This document shows, piece by piece, positions 8,067 to 32,794 of a stretch of 64,000 bases of DNA. The first letter of the stretch is position 1. Every line of letters begins with the position of its first letter. Both the position numbers and the translations under genes were made by a program. Location: positions 372,001 to 436,000 of the forward strand of contig NZ_SWKM01000015.1 in the NCBI RefSeq assembly GCF_005871205.1, in the 5' to 3' direction. The stretch comes from Marinobacter alexandrii. Lineage in GTDB: Bacteria > Pseudomonadota > Gammaproteobacteria > Pseudomonadales > Oleiphilaceae. The notes under the pieces were generated by a model, which was given only the letters and a program-made list of their open reading frames with translations, was not told the DNA's origin and made no database searches.

Positions 8067-8091
8067 TTTTAACTTCCGACCAAACGCCGGA

Positions 8092-10262: not shown

Positions 10263-11567
10263 TCAGCGCTGCTGCTGTCCAGCCTGAACGGCCTCTTCGT
10301 ACTTAACCTTCTTCTCTTTAACCTTGGCCTTTTCGAGTACCAGGTCAACGACAGCATCTTCCAGCACAGAAGACTCGATCTGCGACTTCTGCTCCGGGTT
10401 GCTGTTGAAGTGGGCAACAACTTCCTCAGGCTGTTCATACGTAGACGCGATCTCTTGGATCTTTTCATCGACCTTGGCCGGATCCGCCTTCAGGTCATTC
10501 TGTTTGACTACTTCCTGGAACAACAGACCGGTCTTAACGCGACGCTCCGCCTGCTCCTGGAAAATTTCCTTCGGCAGCTGCTGGAAATCTACCTGGCCGC
10601 CGAAACGCTGTACCGCGTCCTGACGCAGGCGATCGATTTCCTGGTCGACCAGTGCAGTCGGCACGTCCAGCTCGGTGCTTTCCAGCAGGCCATCAACAAC
10701 GTCATTCTTGACCTTGTTGGAAACCGCCTGCTTCAGCTCCCGCTCCATGTTCTTCTTCACTTCCTCACGGAACGCGGCTTCGTCTTCAGCCTCGATGCCG
10801 AACTTCTTGAAGAATTCGGCATCCAGCTCTGGCAGCTGCGGCTCTTCAACCTTGTGGATCTTGATCTCGAACTTGGCCGGCTTACCCGCCAGTTCTTCGT
10901 TGTGGTAATCCTCGGGGAAGGTCACTTCAATTTCCATGTCCTCGCCAGCTTTACCACCCTGAACGGCTTTCTCGAAGCCAGGGATCATCTGGCCGGAGCC
11001 CAGAGTCAGCCGGTGACCTTCAGCGGCACCGCCCTCGAATTCTTCACCGTCGATAGTGCCTTTGAAATCAATGGTCAGCACGTCCTTGTTCTTGGACTTG
11101 CGCTTGACTTCTTTCATGGTGGCCTGCTGACGACGCAGGTTATCGATCATGTTGTCGACATCTTTGTCAGCGATGTCAGAAGTCAGCTTTTCGACAGAGA
11201 TTGTGCTCAGGTCGCCCAGCTCGATTTCCGGCAGCACTTCGAAGATGGCAACGAACTCGAGGTCCTTGCCTTCTTCCATGGTCTTCGGCTCAAACTTCGG
11301 CCAGCCCGCAGGGTTAATGTCCTGCTCCTGCAGTGCCTTGACGTACTGGTCGCGCATAACCTCACCAACCACTTCCTGGCGGACGCTGTCACCGAAACGA
11401 CGCTTAACCACCTTCATGGGCACCTTGCCCGGGCGGAAACCATTTAGGCGTACGGTACGCGCAGTTTCCTGCAGGCGCTTCTGAACCGCCTGGTCAATTT
11501 CCTGGGCGGGCACACCAATCGTCATGCGACGTTCGATGTTGGAGGTCGTTTCAACAGACACTTGCAT
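10263..11567 (-). CDS. tig: Trigger factor (ribosome-associated chaperone and prolyl isomerase)
   Basis: 434 residues. Trigger factor binds the ribosome exit tunnel and shields nascent chains. The ribosome-docking loop GFRPGKVP is at about residues 44-51, the FKBP-type isomerase domain at about 150-245 (KGTIDGEEFEGG, TFPEDYHNEELAGK), and the helical chaperone arms follow. The C-terminus is lysine- and glutamate-rich (KAKVKEKKVKYEE). AGGATCTT precedes the ATG. It heads the tig-clpP-clpX group. Confidence 0.97.
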   Translation of the reverse strand: MQVSVETTSNIERRMTIGVPAQEIDQAVQKRLQETARTVRLNGFRPGKVPMKVVKRRFGDSVRQEVVGEVMRDQYVKALQEQDINPAGWPKFEPKTMEEGKDLEFVAIFEVLPEIELGDLSTISVEKLTSDIADKDVDNMIDNLRRQQATMKEVKRKSKNKDVLTIDFKGTIDGEEFEGGAAEGHRLTLGSGQMIPGFEKAVQGGKAGEDMEIEVTFPEDYHNEELAGKPAKFEIKIHKVEEPQLPELDAEFFKKFGIEAEDEAAFREEVKKNMERELKQAVSNKVKNDVVDGLLESTELDVPTALVDQEIDRLRQDAVQRFGGQVDFQQLPKEIFQEQAERRVKTGLLFQEVVKQNDLKADPAKVDEKIQEIASTYEQPEEVVAHFNSNPEQKSQIESSVLEDAVVDLVLEKAKVKEKKVKYEEAVQAGQQQR

Positions 11568-12039
11568 GGAAGATCCTCAAATTACAGGTTCAGTATGTGA
11601 ATGAAATCAAACTCGAAAACCGGTTTTCAGGCTCTTGCTGAAAACAGGCCGAAAATTAAAAGGCGATAGTTTATCACGGTTTGCCCCGGTGAGAGAATCA
11701 CCCATCTCACGCTTGACTAGCCACATGACACGGACAAACGAACTGTCTTTGGCTGAACTATGGGGACAAAAGATGAAAAAGAAAGGGCCCTACGGGAGGA
11801 TATTCATTGACGAACACCTCACAGGGTCTTGAAACATAAAATCAGTGGGCGGGACAGCGTTCGAGTTACCAACATCTCTTGCTCACTCGAAAATAGTGTC
11901 AGCCCTGTTTACACCCACAGCCACTCAAACCGGCAACCGACTCAAATCCCCCTCTCAAATCATAAAGCTGTGACAGTGGCATTATCTATGCTGCTTTTCT
12001 GATCCTGGATAATTCCAAAAACAAGGGAGGGCCTCACTC
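11568..12039 (+). other. 472-base intergenic region between divergent tig and the metallophosphatase gene
   Basis: It must hold the promoters of tig (minus) and of the gene at 12040 (plus). A palindrome AAAACCGGTTTT lies at about 11617-11628. A ribosome site GGGAGGG sits eight bases before ATG 12040. A 65-codon open frame at 11635-11832 has no ribosome site or recognisable sequence. The stretch looks richer in A and T than the flanking genes by eye. I see no RNA gene or repeat in it. Confidence 0.5.
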
Positions 12040-14970
12040 ATGGCGACAGCTGATCACTCCGCTCCCCCCGATTTCAGGCTCATTTCTTTGGCCCCGGTTT
12101 TTAGCCTATGGCTGGCCAAGTTTTTCCTGGCAATTGCTGTAGCCACTCTTTCAGTCAACGCTGCTGCGTCCGAGATACTAGTCTCTTCAATTGCCGACAG
12201 GTCTGCTCCACAGTCGCTGGAAACCCAGAGCCTCAAAGATGCCGCGTATATCTTTGTCGCTGGAGCTGATGATGCCAACCAGGTTCGTTTTTATCTTGAC
12301 GGCAACAGGATTCAGACAGAAAACCGCTTTCCCTGGGATGCTGCGGGGACCGCGCCAAACGGTCTTGCCCAGCCGCTTGATACCCGAAACTTTTCCGATG
12401 GCAGCTACATCCTGAGAGTAGAAATCCAACCGTCAGAAGGTCCGCTAGAAACGGTGGAAGCGGACCTTCAAATTGTTAACCAGTCACCCCCGGAAGAGGG
12501 GTCTGACGCTGCTCAGTTGCATCTGGGCTGGAAAGAAAGCCCAGCCCACTCGTTCAGCATAATGTGGTTCTCCCCGGCATCATCAGAGGCTTCAGTAAAA
12601 TTCAGACTCACAGGCGAGCAGGCTTGGCAAGTCGCGACCGGCGGGCTAAATCATCAAACCGCAGACGGTCATTATCTGAGCGTTGATGTAAACGGCCTGC
12701 TCGCAAACGCCCAATACGAATTTCAGGTATCGCTGGCCCCACAGATCTGGAGCCGATCGTATCGGGCGTCCACCATGCCCGCCTCCGGCCCTCAGAGCTT
12801 CACTGCGGGCTTTGTCGCGGATACTGGCCTGAAAGGAAGGCTAGATGGCCTGGCATCTGGCACTCAAGGCGTTATCGATGAATTACAGGCACTGGATCCC
12901 GACTTCATAATGCTAGGGGGAGACTACGCTTATTTTGACACCGACAAACGCTTCGGCACTCTTGAGCGCTCGATCTCGGCGTGGTTTGACCAAATGGCTC
13001 CGATCGCCCACTCAAAGGTGATGATGCCGGTATACGGCAACCATGAGGTTTTACTTGGCGAAAGTTTTGATGTGTGGTCGCGCTACTTTGCAACCCCCGA
13101 GGGCTGGAACGCACGAAGGATGTACAGTTTTGATATCGGGGATGTGCACTTCGTTGCAATTTACGGCCTGGACGAATTTCAAACACTTCCCCAGGACGCT
13201 CTCGATTGGATTTCCAGTGACTTACAGCAGGCTTCTCTTCAGGGACAGCGCTGGCTAATCCCATTTTTTCATGCAGCACCTTTCTCAGACGGTAGAAACC
13301 ACCCATCCGCCAGCTCACTAAGAGCACAGCTCGGGCCAATCTTCGAGGCCGCAGGTGTGAAAGTGGTACTGACCGCGCACGACCAATCTTACGAACGTAC
13401 CTATCCGCTGACAGATGTGCCAAACAACAATTCGCCCACGTCTGAAAAACGACACTGCTACACCCTGGCTGACGGTGTAAGCTGGCTCAAAGTGGCACCA
13501 GGAGGAAAACTAAGCAATATCTCAAAAGGGTTCTCCCCTTGGGCGTCGCCGACACCCCCCTCCTGGACGGTTGCTCGCAATAACTCCCTCCATCACTTTG
13601 CCTATATTTCTGTAAATTCAGACGGAATATTGGACGTGGACATCCACGGCCTGGAAGCCACCGGTGCCGCTTCACTTCGCATTGACCGGGTCCGCTATAC
13701 AACACAGGCGTGCGAGGAGGAAATCAGCGCACTACCGTCCGAGATGTCTTTTGTCCTGGAGCCAGGAGCATCCGAGCAACGTGGTTTGGCCGTTACATCA
13801 GGACAAGAAGCCACAAACTTCCGAATTACCCAAATTCCAAGCTGGCTGTCTTTGTCAGCAGTGGCGGGAATAACCCCCACAGAATTAACCGTAACTGCCG
13901 ACACCAAAGACCTATCCTATGGGCTTCATCGAGGAGTGCTGGAAGTCGCCAGCGATACTGGTACCGCAACCTGGATCCCAATCGCACTCAGGGTTGGCGC
14001 CTCAGACTATCAATTGCTGGTTTCCAGCAACGCCCAACGGAGTGCCGCCGTTCCACTTGAAGGCGCAGTACTTCAGAACGACAGCTACATTTTTGTCAGC
14101 CCGGAGTCAGATATCACCCGAGTGCGCTTCTATCTTAATGATCCAGAAGCTTTGGGGGCCGTGACCAAAACAGAAAACGTTGCTCCTTTTGATTTGGGCG
14201 GCACAGCCTCAAACGACAATGCCCTACCCTTCAACACCCAGTCATTGGCTGATGGCGCCCACACACTCGGTGCTCGCGTGTCGCTCTCGGGCATGCCAGA
14301 ACTGCTACTGAATTCCAGCTTCCAGGTCGCTAACGACGCCCCAAGACTATCTGCCACACCCAATAGCCTGGCTTTTCGACTAACAACACCCGAGACCGTC
14401 GCAGAGCAAAGCGTCCTAGTCCAAATGACGAATGGGCTTACTCCAGCCTACACGGCTCAGACCAACTCAGCGTGGTTAAGTGTAAGCCCACCTGACGGCA
14501 CCGCACCCGAAACCTTAACCGTGGGCATAAACGCTGCTGGAATTGGGCTGGGATCCTACTCTGGAGAGATAAGCCTGACCGCCGAAACCGGCGAGACGGA
14601 ATCTATCGTTGTTAGTCTCGAATACGCTGAGCCATCATCGTTGTCCCTGAAAGCAAGCACAACGCCCGACCGAAGCTCACCGTTTAACCTAGAAGGATCG
14701 GTACTCTCTGGTGACACATACATTTTTGTGCCAGAAGAATTCGGTGTGACCGAGGTTCAATTCTATCTTGACGACCCCGAGCGTCAAAACTCACCGATAC
14801 AGGTTGAGAAAAGAGCGCCATGGGATATGGCAGGCACACAATCAACAGCGCCACGCAACGCGCATCCCTTCGATTTATCCGGCCTGACCGGCGAACACCA
14901 GGTGACTGCAGTCGTAACAGTGGAGCAAAGCACCCAGGTGCTTCATGCACGCTTCCAAGTGACACCATGA
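12040..14970 (+). CDS. Secreted modular purple-acid-phosphatase-like metallophosphoesterase
   Basis: 976 residues. The N-terminus has a long signal-type hydrophobic stretch (about 13-42, ending near NAAA). Domains: module A1 (about 45-148), a fibronectin/PAP-N-like sandwich (150-245), the metallophosphatase core (255-545), a BACON-like Ig module B1 (563-653), A2 (657-767), B2 (768-862), A3 (867-976). Catalytic signs of the purple acid phosphatase type are ADTG (260-263), GGDYAY (293-298, the GDxxY form), GNHE (333-336), His411 in FFHAAPF and AHDQSYERT (446-454). The position of the second His in the usual GHxH motif is Gln449. The A modules share SS.A.RSAP, YIFV, V.FYLD, APWD and GGTA-type blocks. 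The substrate is unknown. It faces the 3' end of tRNA-Leu and looks less GC-rich than its neighbours by eye, consistent with acquisition. Confidence 0.85.
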   Translation: MATADHSAPPDFRLISLAPVFSLWLAKFFLAIAVATLSVNAAASEILVSSIADRSAPQSLETQSLKDAAYIFVAGADDANQVRFYLDGNRIQTENRFPWDAAGTAPNGLAQPLDTRNFSDGSYILRVEIQPSEGPLETVEADLQIVNQSPPEEGSDAAQLHLGWKESPAHSFSIMWFSPASSEASVKFRLTGEQAWQVATGGLNHQTADGHYLSVDVNGLLANAQYEFQVSLAPQIWSRSYRASTMPASGPQSFTAGFVADTGLKGRLDGLASGTQGVIDELQALDPDFIMLGGDYAYFDTDKRFGTLERSISAWFDQMAPIAHSKVMMPVYGNHEVLLGESFDVWSRYFATPEGWNARRMYSFDIGDVHFVAIYGLDEFQTLPQDALDWISSDLQQASLQGQRWLIPFFHAAPFSDGRNHPSASSLRAQLGPIFEAAGVKVVLTAHDQSYERTYPLTDVPNNNSPTSEKRHCYTLADGVSWLKVAPGGKLSNISKGFSPWASPTPPSWTVARNNSLHHFAYISVNSDGILDVDIHGLEATGAASLRIDRVRYTTQACEEEISALPSEMSFVLEPGASEQRGLAVTSGQEATNFRITQIPSWLSLSAVAGITPTELTVTADTKDLSYGLHRGVLEVASDTGTATWIPIALRVGASDYQLLVSSNAQRSAAVPLEGAVLQNDSYIFVSPESDITRVRFYLNDPEALGAVTKTENVAPFDLGGTASNDNALPFNTQSLADGAHTLGARVSLSGMPELLLNSSFQVANDAPRLSATPNSLAFRLTTPETVAEQSVLVQMTNGLTPAYTAQTNSAWLSVSPPDGTAPETLTVGINAAGIGLGSYSGEISLTAETGETESIVVSLEYAEPSSLSLKASTTPDRSSPFNLEGSVLSGDTYIFVPEEFGVTEVQFYLDDPERQNSPIQVEKRAPWDMAGTQSTAPRNAHPFDLSGLTGEHQVTAVVTVEQSTQVLHARFQVTP

Positions 14971-15086
14971 ATTCAGATACACAACTGAAGCCGAGAAAAA
15001 CCCTTCTCGACTTATTTCATCTGGGCGGCAATCCAACATTCGAGCGTTTCCAACACGCCCTACCAGCCATAAAAAAAGCCTCTTAG
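14967..15086 (+). CDS. Possible 39-residue coupled small protein
   Basis: An ATG at 14967 overlaps the metallophosphatase stop as ATGA, a typical coupling arrangement, and opens a 39-codon frame (MNSDTQLKPRKTLLDLF...) that stops inside the terminator stem at 15074-15106. There is no separate ribosome site and I recognise no family. It may be a remnant of a longer gene or chance. Confidence 0.25.
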   Translation: MNSDTQLKPRKTLLDLFHLGGNPTFERFQHALPAIKKAS

Positions 15087-15106
15087 ATTATCTCTAAGAG
15101 GCTTTT
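15074..15106 (+). terminator. Bidirectional terminator between the metallophosphatase gene and the tRNA operon
   Basis: Perfect 14-bp stem AAAAGCCTCTTAGA / TCTAAGAGGCTTTT with a 5-base loop. A and T runs flank both sides, so it can end plus-strand transcripts from 12040 and minus-strand transcripts leaving tRNA-Leu at 15112. Confidence 0.85.
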
Positions 15107-15111
15107 AAAGT

Positions 15112-15196
15112 TGGTGCGGGTGGAGGGACTTGAACCCCCACTCCTCTCGGAACCAGAACCTAAATCTGGCGCGTCTACCAGTTCCGCCACACCCGC
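15112..15196 (-). tRNA. tRNA-Leu (anticodon UAG)
   Basis: 85 bases with encoded CCA. Acceptor stem GCGGGTG / CACCCGC, anticodon loop TTTAGGT inside CCAGA / TCTGG, a long variable arm as expected for Leu, and T loop GTTCAAGTC. It is the last gene of the tRNA operon and its 3' end faces the accessory gene. Confidence 0.95.
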
Positions 15197-32023: not shown

Positions 32024-32794
32024 TTACTGCTCAACGAATGCGCGCTCGATCACGTAGTGACCCATCTCGCCACCGCGTGCTTCCTTGAAGCCCATCTTGT
32101 TCAGGATGGCGCAAGTGTCTTTAAGCATGCTCGGGCTGCCGCAGATCATGAACCGGTCATGTTCCGGATCAAAATCCGCCAGGTTCAGATCCTTGGTGAT
32201 CTTGCCGCTTTCCATGGCGTCGGTCAGACGGCCTTGGTTGCGGAACGCTTCCCGAGTGACGGTTGGATAGTATTCCAGCTTACCCTTCACCATCTCGCCA
32301 AAGAACTCGTTCTCCGGCAGCTCCTCAATATCCGCTTGGTAGGCCAGCTCAGATACGTAGCGAACACCGTGGGTCAGGATCACCTTGTCATAAGCCTCGT
32401 AGACCTCCGGGTCCTTGATGATGCTCATGAATGGTGCGAGCCCTGTACCGGTACTGATCATCCACAGGTTCTTGCCCGGCAGCAGGTTGTCCATCACCAA
32501 GGTGCCTGTCGGCTTCCGGCTCACCAGGATTTCATCGCCCACCTCAATCTTCTGCAGACGTGAGGTCAACGGGCCGTCCTGAACCTTAATCGAGAAGAAC
32601 TCCAGCTCTTCTTCGTAGTTGGCACTGGCAATGCTGTAGGCACGCATTAGCGGCTTGCCATCGGTTTCCAGACCAATCATCACAAAGTGACCGTTCTTGA
32701 AGCGGAACCCTGGGTCGCGGCTGGTCTTGAAGCTGAACAGGGTATCGTTCCAGTGGTGTACGCTGGTCACTGTTTCTTTAATCAGGTTGCTCAT
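32024..32794 (-). CDS. fpr: Ferredoxin/flavodoxin-NADP+ reductase
   Basis: 256 residues. FAD enzyme that moves electrons between NADPH and ferredoxin or flavodoxin; in pseudomonads it supports oxidative stress defence and iron-sulfur repair. FAD motif RAYSIAS, pyrophosphate and NADP region STGTGLAPFMSII, and C-terminal GSPSMLKDTCAIL are seen. GAGG lies before the ATG. It is divergent from a LysR gene of the FinR type, with 140 bases between. Confidence 0.95.
   Translation of the reverse strand: MSNLIKETVTSVHHWNDTLFSFKTSRDPGFRFKNGHFVMIGLETDGKPLMRAYSIASANYEEELEFFSIKVQDGPLTSRLQKIEVGDEILVSRKPTGTLVMDNLLPGKNLWMISTGTGLAPFMSIIKDPEVYEAYDKVILTHGVRYVSELAYQADIEELPENEFFGEMVKGKLEYYPTVTREAFRNQGRLTDAMESGKITKDLNLADFDPEHDRFMICGSPSMLKDTCAILNKMGFKEARGGEMGHYVIERAFVEQ

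Follow-up and report, generated by a model that had tools for sequence, protein, structure and literature searches.

A predicted exported purple-acid-phosphatase-like protein with immunoglobulin-like and BACON modules behind a PEP-CTERM-box-like promoter in Marinobacter alexandrii

The stretch of DNA analysed here (the window; 64,000 nucleotides of Marinobacter alexandrii, contig NZ_SWKM01000015.1, positions 372,001 to 436,000 of the forward strand) holds, between tig and a cluster of tRNA genes, a single intact open reading frame that starts with ATG and encodes a modular metallophosphatase. The first-pass annotation had described the product as a modular exported protein in which an enzyme core is accompanied by three A modules and two BACON-like B modules. 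The open reading frame, Pfam and the module alignments bear out this description and its domain order, which runs from an N-terminal signal peptide through A1, the purple acid phosphatase (PAP) N-terminal domain with the metallophosphatase, B1, A2 and B2 to A3 (Table 1; module boundaries were placed by hand from the alignments). Searched as a whole, the protein exceeded the Pfam cut-offs for Metallophos (39.8 bits against 21.5), Pur_ac_phosph_N (37.2 against 30), BACON_2 (30.0 against 25) and Big_7 (30.0 against 24.1, a cut-off that no single stretch passes). The predicted export signal lacks a lipobox, since it contains no cysteine. A3 forms the C-terminal end (final residues HARFQVTP), with no anchor beyond it.

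Table 1. Positions in the window of the gene, its upstream elements and the segments of its product
Feature	Position	Strand	Basis
Motif 1, TGTCAGCCCTGTTTACA, 17 nt, 3' end TTTACA, predicted PrsR site	11897..11913	+	Features of Haft 2006
Motif 2, sigma-54 -24/-12 element, TGGCATTATCTATGCT	11977..11992	+	Pattern search
Ribosome-binding-site-like, AAGGGAGG	12024..12031	+	By eye
Modular metallophosphatase gene, 976 amino acids	12040..14970	+	Open reading frame and Pfam
N-terminal export signal, predicted	12040..12171	+	Hydrophobic stretch; AlphaFold helix 18-39
A1, immunoglobulin-like, Big_7-related, residues 45-148	12172..12483	+	Pfam and module alignments
PAP N-terminal Fn3-like sandwich (PF16656), residues ~155-246	12502..12777	+	Pfam
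Metallophosphatase core (PF00149), residues ~252-560	12793..13719	+	Pfam, phmmer, Foldseek, alignment
Q449 codon, seventh metal-ligand position	13384..13386	+	Homologue alignment
B1, BACON_2-like, residues 561-656	13720..14007	+	Alignment to B2; under Pfam cut-off alone
A2, immunoglobulin-like, residues 657-766	14008..14337	+	Alignments, AlphaFold model
B2, BACON_2 (PF19190), residues 767-866	14338..14637	+	Pfam
A3, immunoglobulin-like by homology to A2, residues 867-976	14638..14967	+	Alignments

The proposal that the core resembles purple acid phosphatases was supported alike by Pfam, phmmer and Foldseek. A PF16656 domain is followed by PF00149, the succession by which the family is recognised, and phmmer matched the core to the purple acid phosphatase 6gja at 2e-16, with AHDQSYER aligned to GHVHAYER. 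A Foldseek search with the full-length AlphaFold model (mean pLDDT 53.3; used for this fold call only) returned PAP chains in all of the first 15 rows, with a best value of 1.5e-17 and target TM values of 0.54-0.66. We therefore assign a PAP-type fold to the core with high confidence. After the PAPs, the first metallophosphatase that Foldseek listed was PhoD (2yeq) at 5.6e-9, which, together with the frequent presence of extracellular DNA in matrix, speaks for a secreted enzyme that would act as a phosphodiesterase or nucleotide pyrophosphatase on fragments of extracellular DNA, on nucleotides or on phosphodiester-containing polymers. Both sequence and fold lie nearer to the PAPs than to PhoD, however, and no specificity-determining feature was identified in the core, so that we consider such an activity decidedly improbable. 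The plant PAPs (wheat phytase isoform 6giz and red kidney bean 2qfp/4dhl) have the same PF16656 and PF00149 domains and share with the window protein the D, GDxxY, GNHE and H motifs and the first His of the last motif. They differ from it in that the window protein is bacterial, has the Gln of AHDQ in place of the last His, and carries the A/BACON array and a PEP-CTERM-box-like promoter.

Two homologues form a clade with the window protein. One is a full-length orthologue from the same genus (genome G002; L018, ATG taken at 8085, stop at 11006) with the same architecture, 55% identity and AHDQ. The other is a Methylotetracoccus oryzae protein of 549 amino acids (L004:5974-7623), which consists of A1 and a PAP core with AHDQ, is 44% identical and lacks the B1-A2-B2-A3 extension. 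PAPs bind their metals by seven ligands in five motifs (D, GDxxY, GNH, H and GHxH). Six of the seven are kept in the window protein (D261, D295, Y298, N334, H411 and H447), and the seventh, the last His of GHxH, is Q449. Since the full set of seven is absent, we label the protein PAP-like rather than a canonical member of the family. Among 34 aligned homologues the Q449 column holds His in 31 and Gln in 3, the latter being precisely the three clade members; four further sequences from a search of the phylum all have His (Gln in 3 of 38 altogether). This motif count leaves out L058, L066, L069 and L070, whose matches end before the last motif, and two class matches without a locus. Wherever the aligned rows have the column, D261, D295, N334, H411 and H447 are unchanged. 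The clade retains Y298, a position that across the rows holds Tyr in 25, another residue in 8 and a gap in 1. Cysteines C473 and C558 are present in all three clade members and may pair in a disulfide.

The Gln substitution bears on whether the core is still an enzyme. A PAP fold that became inactive on losing its seventh ligand, and that acts today as the binding domain of a matrix adhesin, would account for Gln replacing a conserved His in all three clade members and for the adhesin-like remainder of the protein. On the other hand, the clade keeps the other six ligands in all three members, including the Tyr that is absent from 8 of the 33 homologues having that column, and we regard a pseudoenzyme as improbable. 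The dimetal site may instead be altered rather than dead, and we have moderate confidence, as judged from the sequence, in catalysis by the predicted phosphohydrolase core. The 5'-nucleotidase UshA uses Gln as a working ligand at the corresponding position, which likewise speaks against a pseudoenzyme; the literature searched, which included passages of PMC8071527, did not show this residue.

With regard to the modules, the three A copies were claimed to be related to one another, and they are: the A1/A2, A1/A3 and A2/A3 alignments gave z values of 29, 20 and 29, and for each pair none of 1000 shuffles reached the score. The B1/B2 alignment (z = 8.5) was likewise reached by none of 1000 shuffles, whereas three A-versus-B controls gave z values of 3.2 (reached by 13 of 1000 shuffles), -0.6 and -0.4. 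Eight columns are invariant across 15 A modules, drawn from six proteins of the genus and one of Methylotetracoccus. As to the sequence blocks said to be common to the copies, YIFV is exact in all three, but GGTA is exact in A2 only (AGTA in A1, AGTQ in A3), and the third block reads FPWD in A1, APFD in A2 and APWD in A3. Searched singly, A1 and A2 scored 16.3 and 15.6 bits for Big_7, below its cut-off of 24.1, and A3 had no Pfam hit; Laminin_G_3, GldM_2nd and TcfC were dropped as identities for the A modules, as their Pfam scores fell under the cut-offs. The BACON-like nature of the B modules held up, in that B2 alone passes the BACON_2 cut-off of 25 bits (28.1) and B1, which alone fails it (14.6), is homologous to B2. 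Neither of the outcomes that the first-pass annotation had named as contrary to its proposal, namely unrelated A modules or a core other than a metallophosphatase, appeared in the domain searches and alignments.

A2, the only A module modelled singly, was predicted by AlphaFold from four alignment rows as a beta sandwich with a mean pLDDT of 93.6. The nearest solved folds are the Fn3-like modules of CbhA (3pdd; VIA Z 9.3, 2.4 Å over 83 residues) and B1 of CelAly (9kvu; VIA Z 8.9, 2.3 Å over 82 residues), at 18-23% identity, where the common immunoglobulin (Ig)-type fold shows no function. Foldseek returned for A2 a mixture of Ig-like and other sandwiches, with four rows at E <= 0.001 and no indication of function. 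The modelled sandwich and its nearest Fn3/Ig-type folds therefore place A among the Ig-like modules of bacteria, as a divergent member.

When 21 A modules were placed in a maximum-likelihood tree, A1, A2 and A3 each paired with their own counterpart in the G002 orthologue (ultrafast bootstrap 97-99), so that the copies are older than the split between the two proteins. The forks that order the copies were weak and did not resolve whether A1 or A2/A3 branched first. The suggestion of an old internal duplication around the enzyme thus stands as far as age is concerned, but A modules are not confined to the surroundings of the enzyme. They recur in a paralogue and, outside the genus, in a protein of great length, so that module shuffling is also part of their history. 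With the enzyme removed the array reads A-B-A-B-A; this order suggests an enzyme sitting inside an alternating A/B array, though it does not demonstrate insertion.

A search of the own genome with an A-module profile found five copies at E <= 1, three in the phosphatase and two in a 1500-amino-acid paralogue (L017:8875-13377, contig C15). Across the class, A modules at E <= 1e-5 occurred in 3 of 369 genomes, namely the own genome and two of one other genus. The paralogue lies in an exosortase/PrsK-PrsR-PrsT exopolysaccharide locus and was found in G000, G002, G013 and G020 among 58 relatives, the own genome included. Its order, read from the sequence, is A-B-A-B-B followed by a GSDH-like propeller and Kelch repeats; Pfam applied to two copies of the paralogue placed BACON_2 over the cut-off in both and GSDH in one. 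It resembles the phosphatase in its A and BACON modules, its N-terminal export signal (by eye), its promoter and the lack of a PEP-CTERM hit, and differs in having beta-propellers where the window protein has the phosphatase. In the other genus, an open frame of more than 3700 amino acids (G158; L064:1-11181) carries an A module, PKD domains and many NNWWG-type repeats that are probably a beta-helix (by eye). Pfam reported PKD but neither BACON nor Big_7 in the first 500 residues of this protein; BACON-like stretches were seen by eye.

The region upstream of the phosphatase gene contains two elements separated by a 63-nt spacer, and 48 nt lie between the TGC of motif 2 (ending at 11991) and the ATG. 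According to Haft 2006 (PMC1569441), proteobacterial PEP-CTERM genes are preceded by a 17-nt motif ending in TTTACA, a spacer of 62.8 nt on average (standard deviation 10.6, range 32-92) and a sigma-54 -24GG/-12GC motif that averages 71 nt from the start codon, and a few such sites also precede other genes. The phosphatase gene has the TTTACA end, a spacer within 32-92 nt and the -24GG/-12GC element, a comparison that covers these features and not the logo of motif 1 itself. A strict pattern (TGTCR-N7-WTACA-N50..80-TGGCA-N7-TGC) occurred at 2 places in the whole 4.34-Mb genome, upstream of the phosphatase and of the paralogue, and at none in the reversed control, a count that shows specificity and not independent discovery because the pattern was tuned on these genes. 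It precedes all six same-genus A-module genes read, with a spacer of 63 nt in the two phosphatases (thus also in the G002 orthologue) and of 65 nt in the four paralogues.

Of the five own-genome PEP-CTERM hits that exceed the cut-off, four are preceded by a relaxed form of the pattern (a sixth hit, under cut-off, was left out of the box search). This form occurred once in the window and was absent from other loci totalling 290,442 bases; shuffling the window 60 times gave a mean of 0.067 and a largest value of 2. A looser form without GTC gave one background match. The four boxed PEP-CTERM genes lie in L154, L155 and L156 (in L155 the start was taken as position 820; an in-frame ATG is also present at 808), and two of them flank a 494-amino-acid gene that is methylcitrate-dehydratase-type by eye. 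The arrangement is comparable to that of pepA, an RpoN-dependent PEP-CTERM gene of Aquincola whose -24/-12 promoter has been mapped (PMC9850573), and to the PrsK/PrsR/PrsT set of Haft 2006: all combine a -24/-12 element with an upstream enhancer-type motif. The genes described there encode PEP-CTERM-tailed proteins, whereas the phosphatase protein has no tail. From the promoter sequence we place fairly high confidence in its assignment as a PEP-CTERM box.

A different regulation was also considered, in which the gene would be Pho-controlled, its product a secreted phosphatase scavenging phosphate, and the modules generic spacers or particle adhesins. The PAP-type fold fits such a role, as does a site at 11957 that matches the Pho-box consensus at 13 of 18 positions; in addition, inositol phosphates are reportedly a marine phosphorus source, in a 2025 paper that is said to name purple acid phosphatase. 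The window contains nine Pho-like matches of this quality, however, and Pho control was dropped as a reading of the site at 11957, which is no better than the eight others. Matches to the bipartite PEP-CTERM box are much less frequent, and the exopolysaccharide-linked paralogue also has one. Scavenging is accordingly an unlikely main function.

The locus of the paralogue contains PrsK, PrsR and PrsT, each over its cut-off (TIGR02916 at 661 bits against 300, TIGR02915 at 562.7 against 502.6 and TIGR02917 at 377.6 against 312.2). Its exosortase passed the cut-off of TIGR02602 and stayed under that of the XrtA model.

The phosphatase gene is rare among relatives, with a full-length orthologue in 1 of 57 others, and that orthologue lies at a different genome place, beside type-VI-secretion-like and cysteine synthase genes (names by eye). 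This suggests horizontal gain or repeated loss; the bipartite promoter is present at both places. A plasmid collection gave 9 records, all below 60% identity with query coverages of 19-36%. Of 22 other genomes of the genus, 21 have the tRNA cluster Leu-His-Arg-Pro within about 0.2-0.9 kb of tig, the exception being G018, where a 619-amino-acid open reading frame without a Pfam hit at E <= 0.001 lies between them. The interval between tig and tRNA-Leu (11568-15111) looks like an insertion spot, occupied by the phosphatase here and by the 619-amino-acid frame in G018. Relative to G028, the sequence loses similarity beyond about 11703, apart from a patch near 11761-11788, and regains it near 15066; about 3.3 kb thus differ. 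A hairpin with A and T tracts at 15072-15101, between the phosphatase gene and tRNA-Leu, is common to G028 (by eye) and is likely a bidirectional terminator. The tRNA-Leu(TAG) region (15112-15196) is 73-83% identical to most same-genus genomes, 89% to G028 and G004 and 88% to G026, and given these differences two tRNA-Leu variants seem to circulate in the genus. Arrival of the divergent tRNA-Leu together with the phosphatase gene is unlikely, as G028 has no phosphatase match and yet has the 89% stretch, 0.3 kb from its tig.

Taken together, we hold it somewhat more probable than otherwise that the protein is a secreted, matrix-associated phosphohydrolase of PAP fold under the PrsK/PrsR/sigma-54 control of the exosortase exopolysaccharide locus. 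The chain of Ig-like and BACON modules, and a promoter common to exopolysaccharide-linked surface proteins, suggest a place of action in slime or biofilm matrix and a role other than simple phosphate scavenging. PrsK/PrsR and sigma-54 would activate the gene together with exopolysaccharide-associated surface proteins, and the product would be exported by its N-terminal signal without a PEP-CTERM anchor. The A and BACON modules may space or extend the enzyme or hold it on a matrix polymer; a spacer role for BACON is proposed in PMC11216935. Our confidence that the predicted A/BACON scaffold binds matrix is moderate to low. The dimetal site would use Gln449, and the PAP-like core would remove phosphate from a matrix- or polymer-borne ester.

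It should be underlined that several results weigh against this interpretation. With regard to the enzyme, the replacement of one canonical metal ligand could weaken or abolish activity, and the full-length AlphaFold model is poor. The protein has no PEP-CTERM tail (TIGR02595), all six own-genome hits at E <= 1 lying elsewhere, and is therefore unlikely to be a substrate of the exosortase. Whereas 43 of 58 relatives have PrsR, only 2 of 58 (own genome included) have a full-length phosphatase orthologue, from which it follows that the phosphatase is dispensable to the PrsR system. As to the promoter, the genome-wide exclusivity of the strict pattern is partly circular, the Haft features alone being external, and motif 2 by itself is unremarkable (TGGCAY-N5-ATGCT gave 10 genome matches against 6 in the reversed control). 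A second TGGCAC-N5-ATGCT, without an upstream motif 1, is present in the window at 32620-32635. The fifth PEP-CTERM hit, a 67-amino-acid frame at C1:924621 that we suspect to be false, has no box in the 2-kb stretch L157, and no relaxed box was found in 13.6 kb around the Methylotetracoccus homologue. Finally, the Pho-box-like site leaves room for phosphate control.

More speculatively, the protein may represent an undescribed class of Gln-substituted PAP-fold enzymes on an Ig/BACON scaffold, switched on by PrsR and sigma-54 together with exopolysaccharide export, which would trim phosphate from phosphorylated exopolysaccharide or matrix proteins made by the cell itself, thereby adjusting the charge and cohesion of the matrix; we put this forward as a tentative and rather doubtful idea. 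An open-licence literature search returned no paper joining 'PEP-CTERM' and 'purple acid phosphatase'.

To our knowledge, PEP-CTERM/exosortase systems with PrsK/PrsR control occur in many proteobacteria, and the role of most of their target genes is unknown. A secreted enzyme in the PrsK/PrsR regulon would offer a biochemical handle on these systems. If its substrate is a matrix component, enzymatic phosphate removal would join the maturation or release of exopolysaccharide. The exchange of Gln for a His ligand in a PAP site would moreover serve as a natural test of how metals are selected in a well-studied family.

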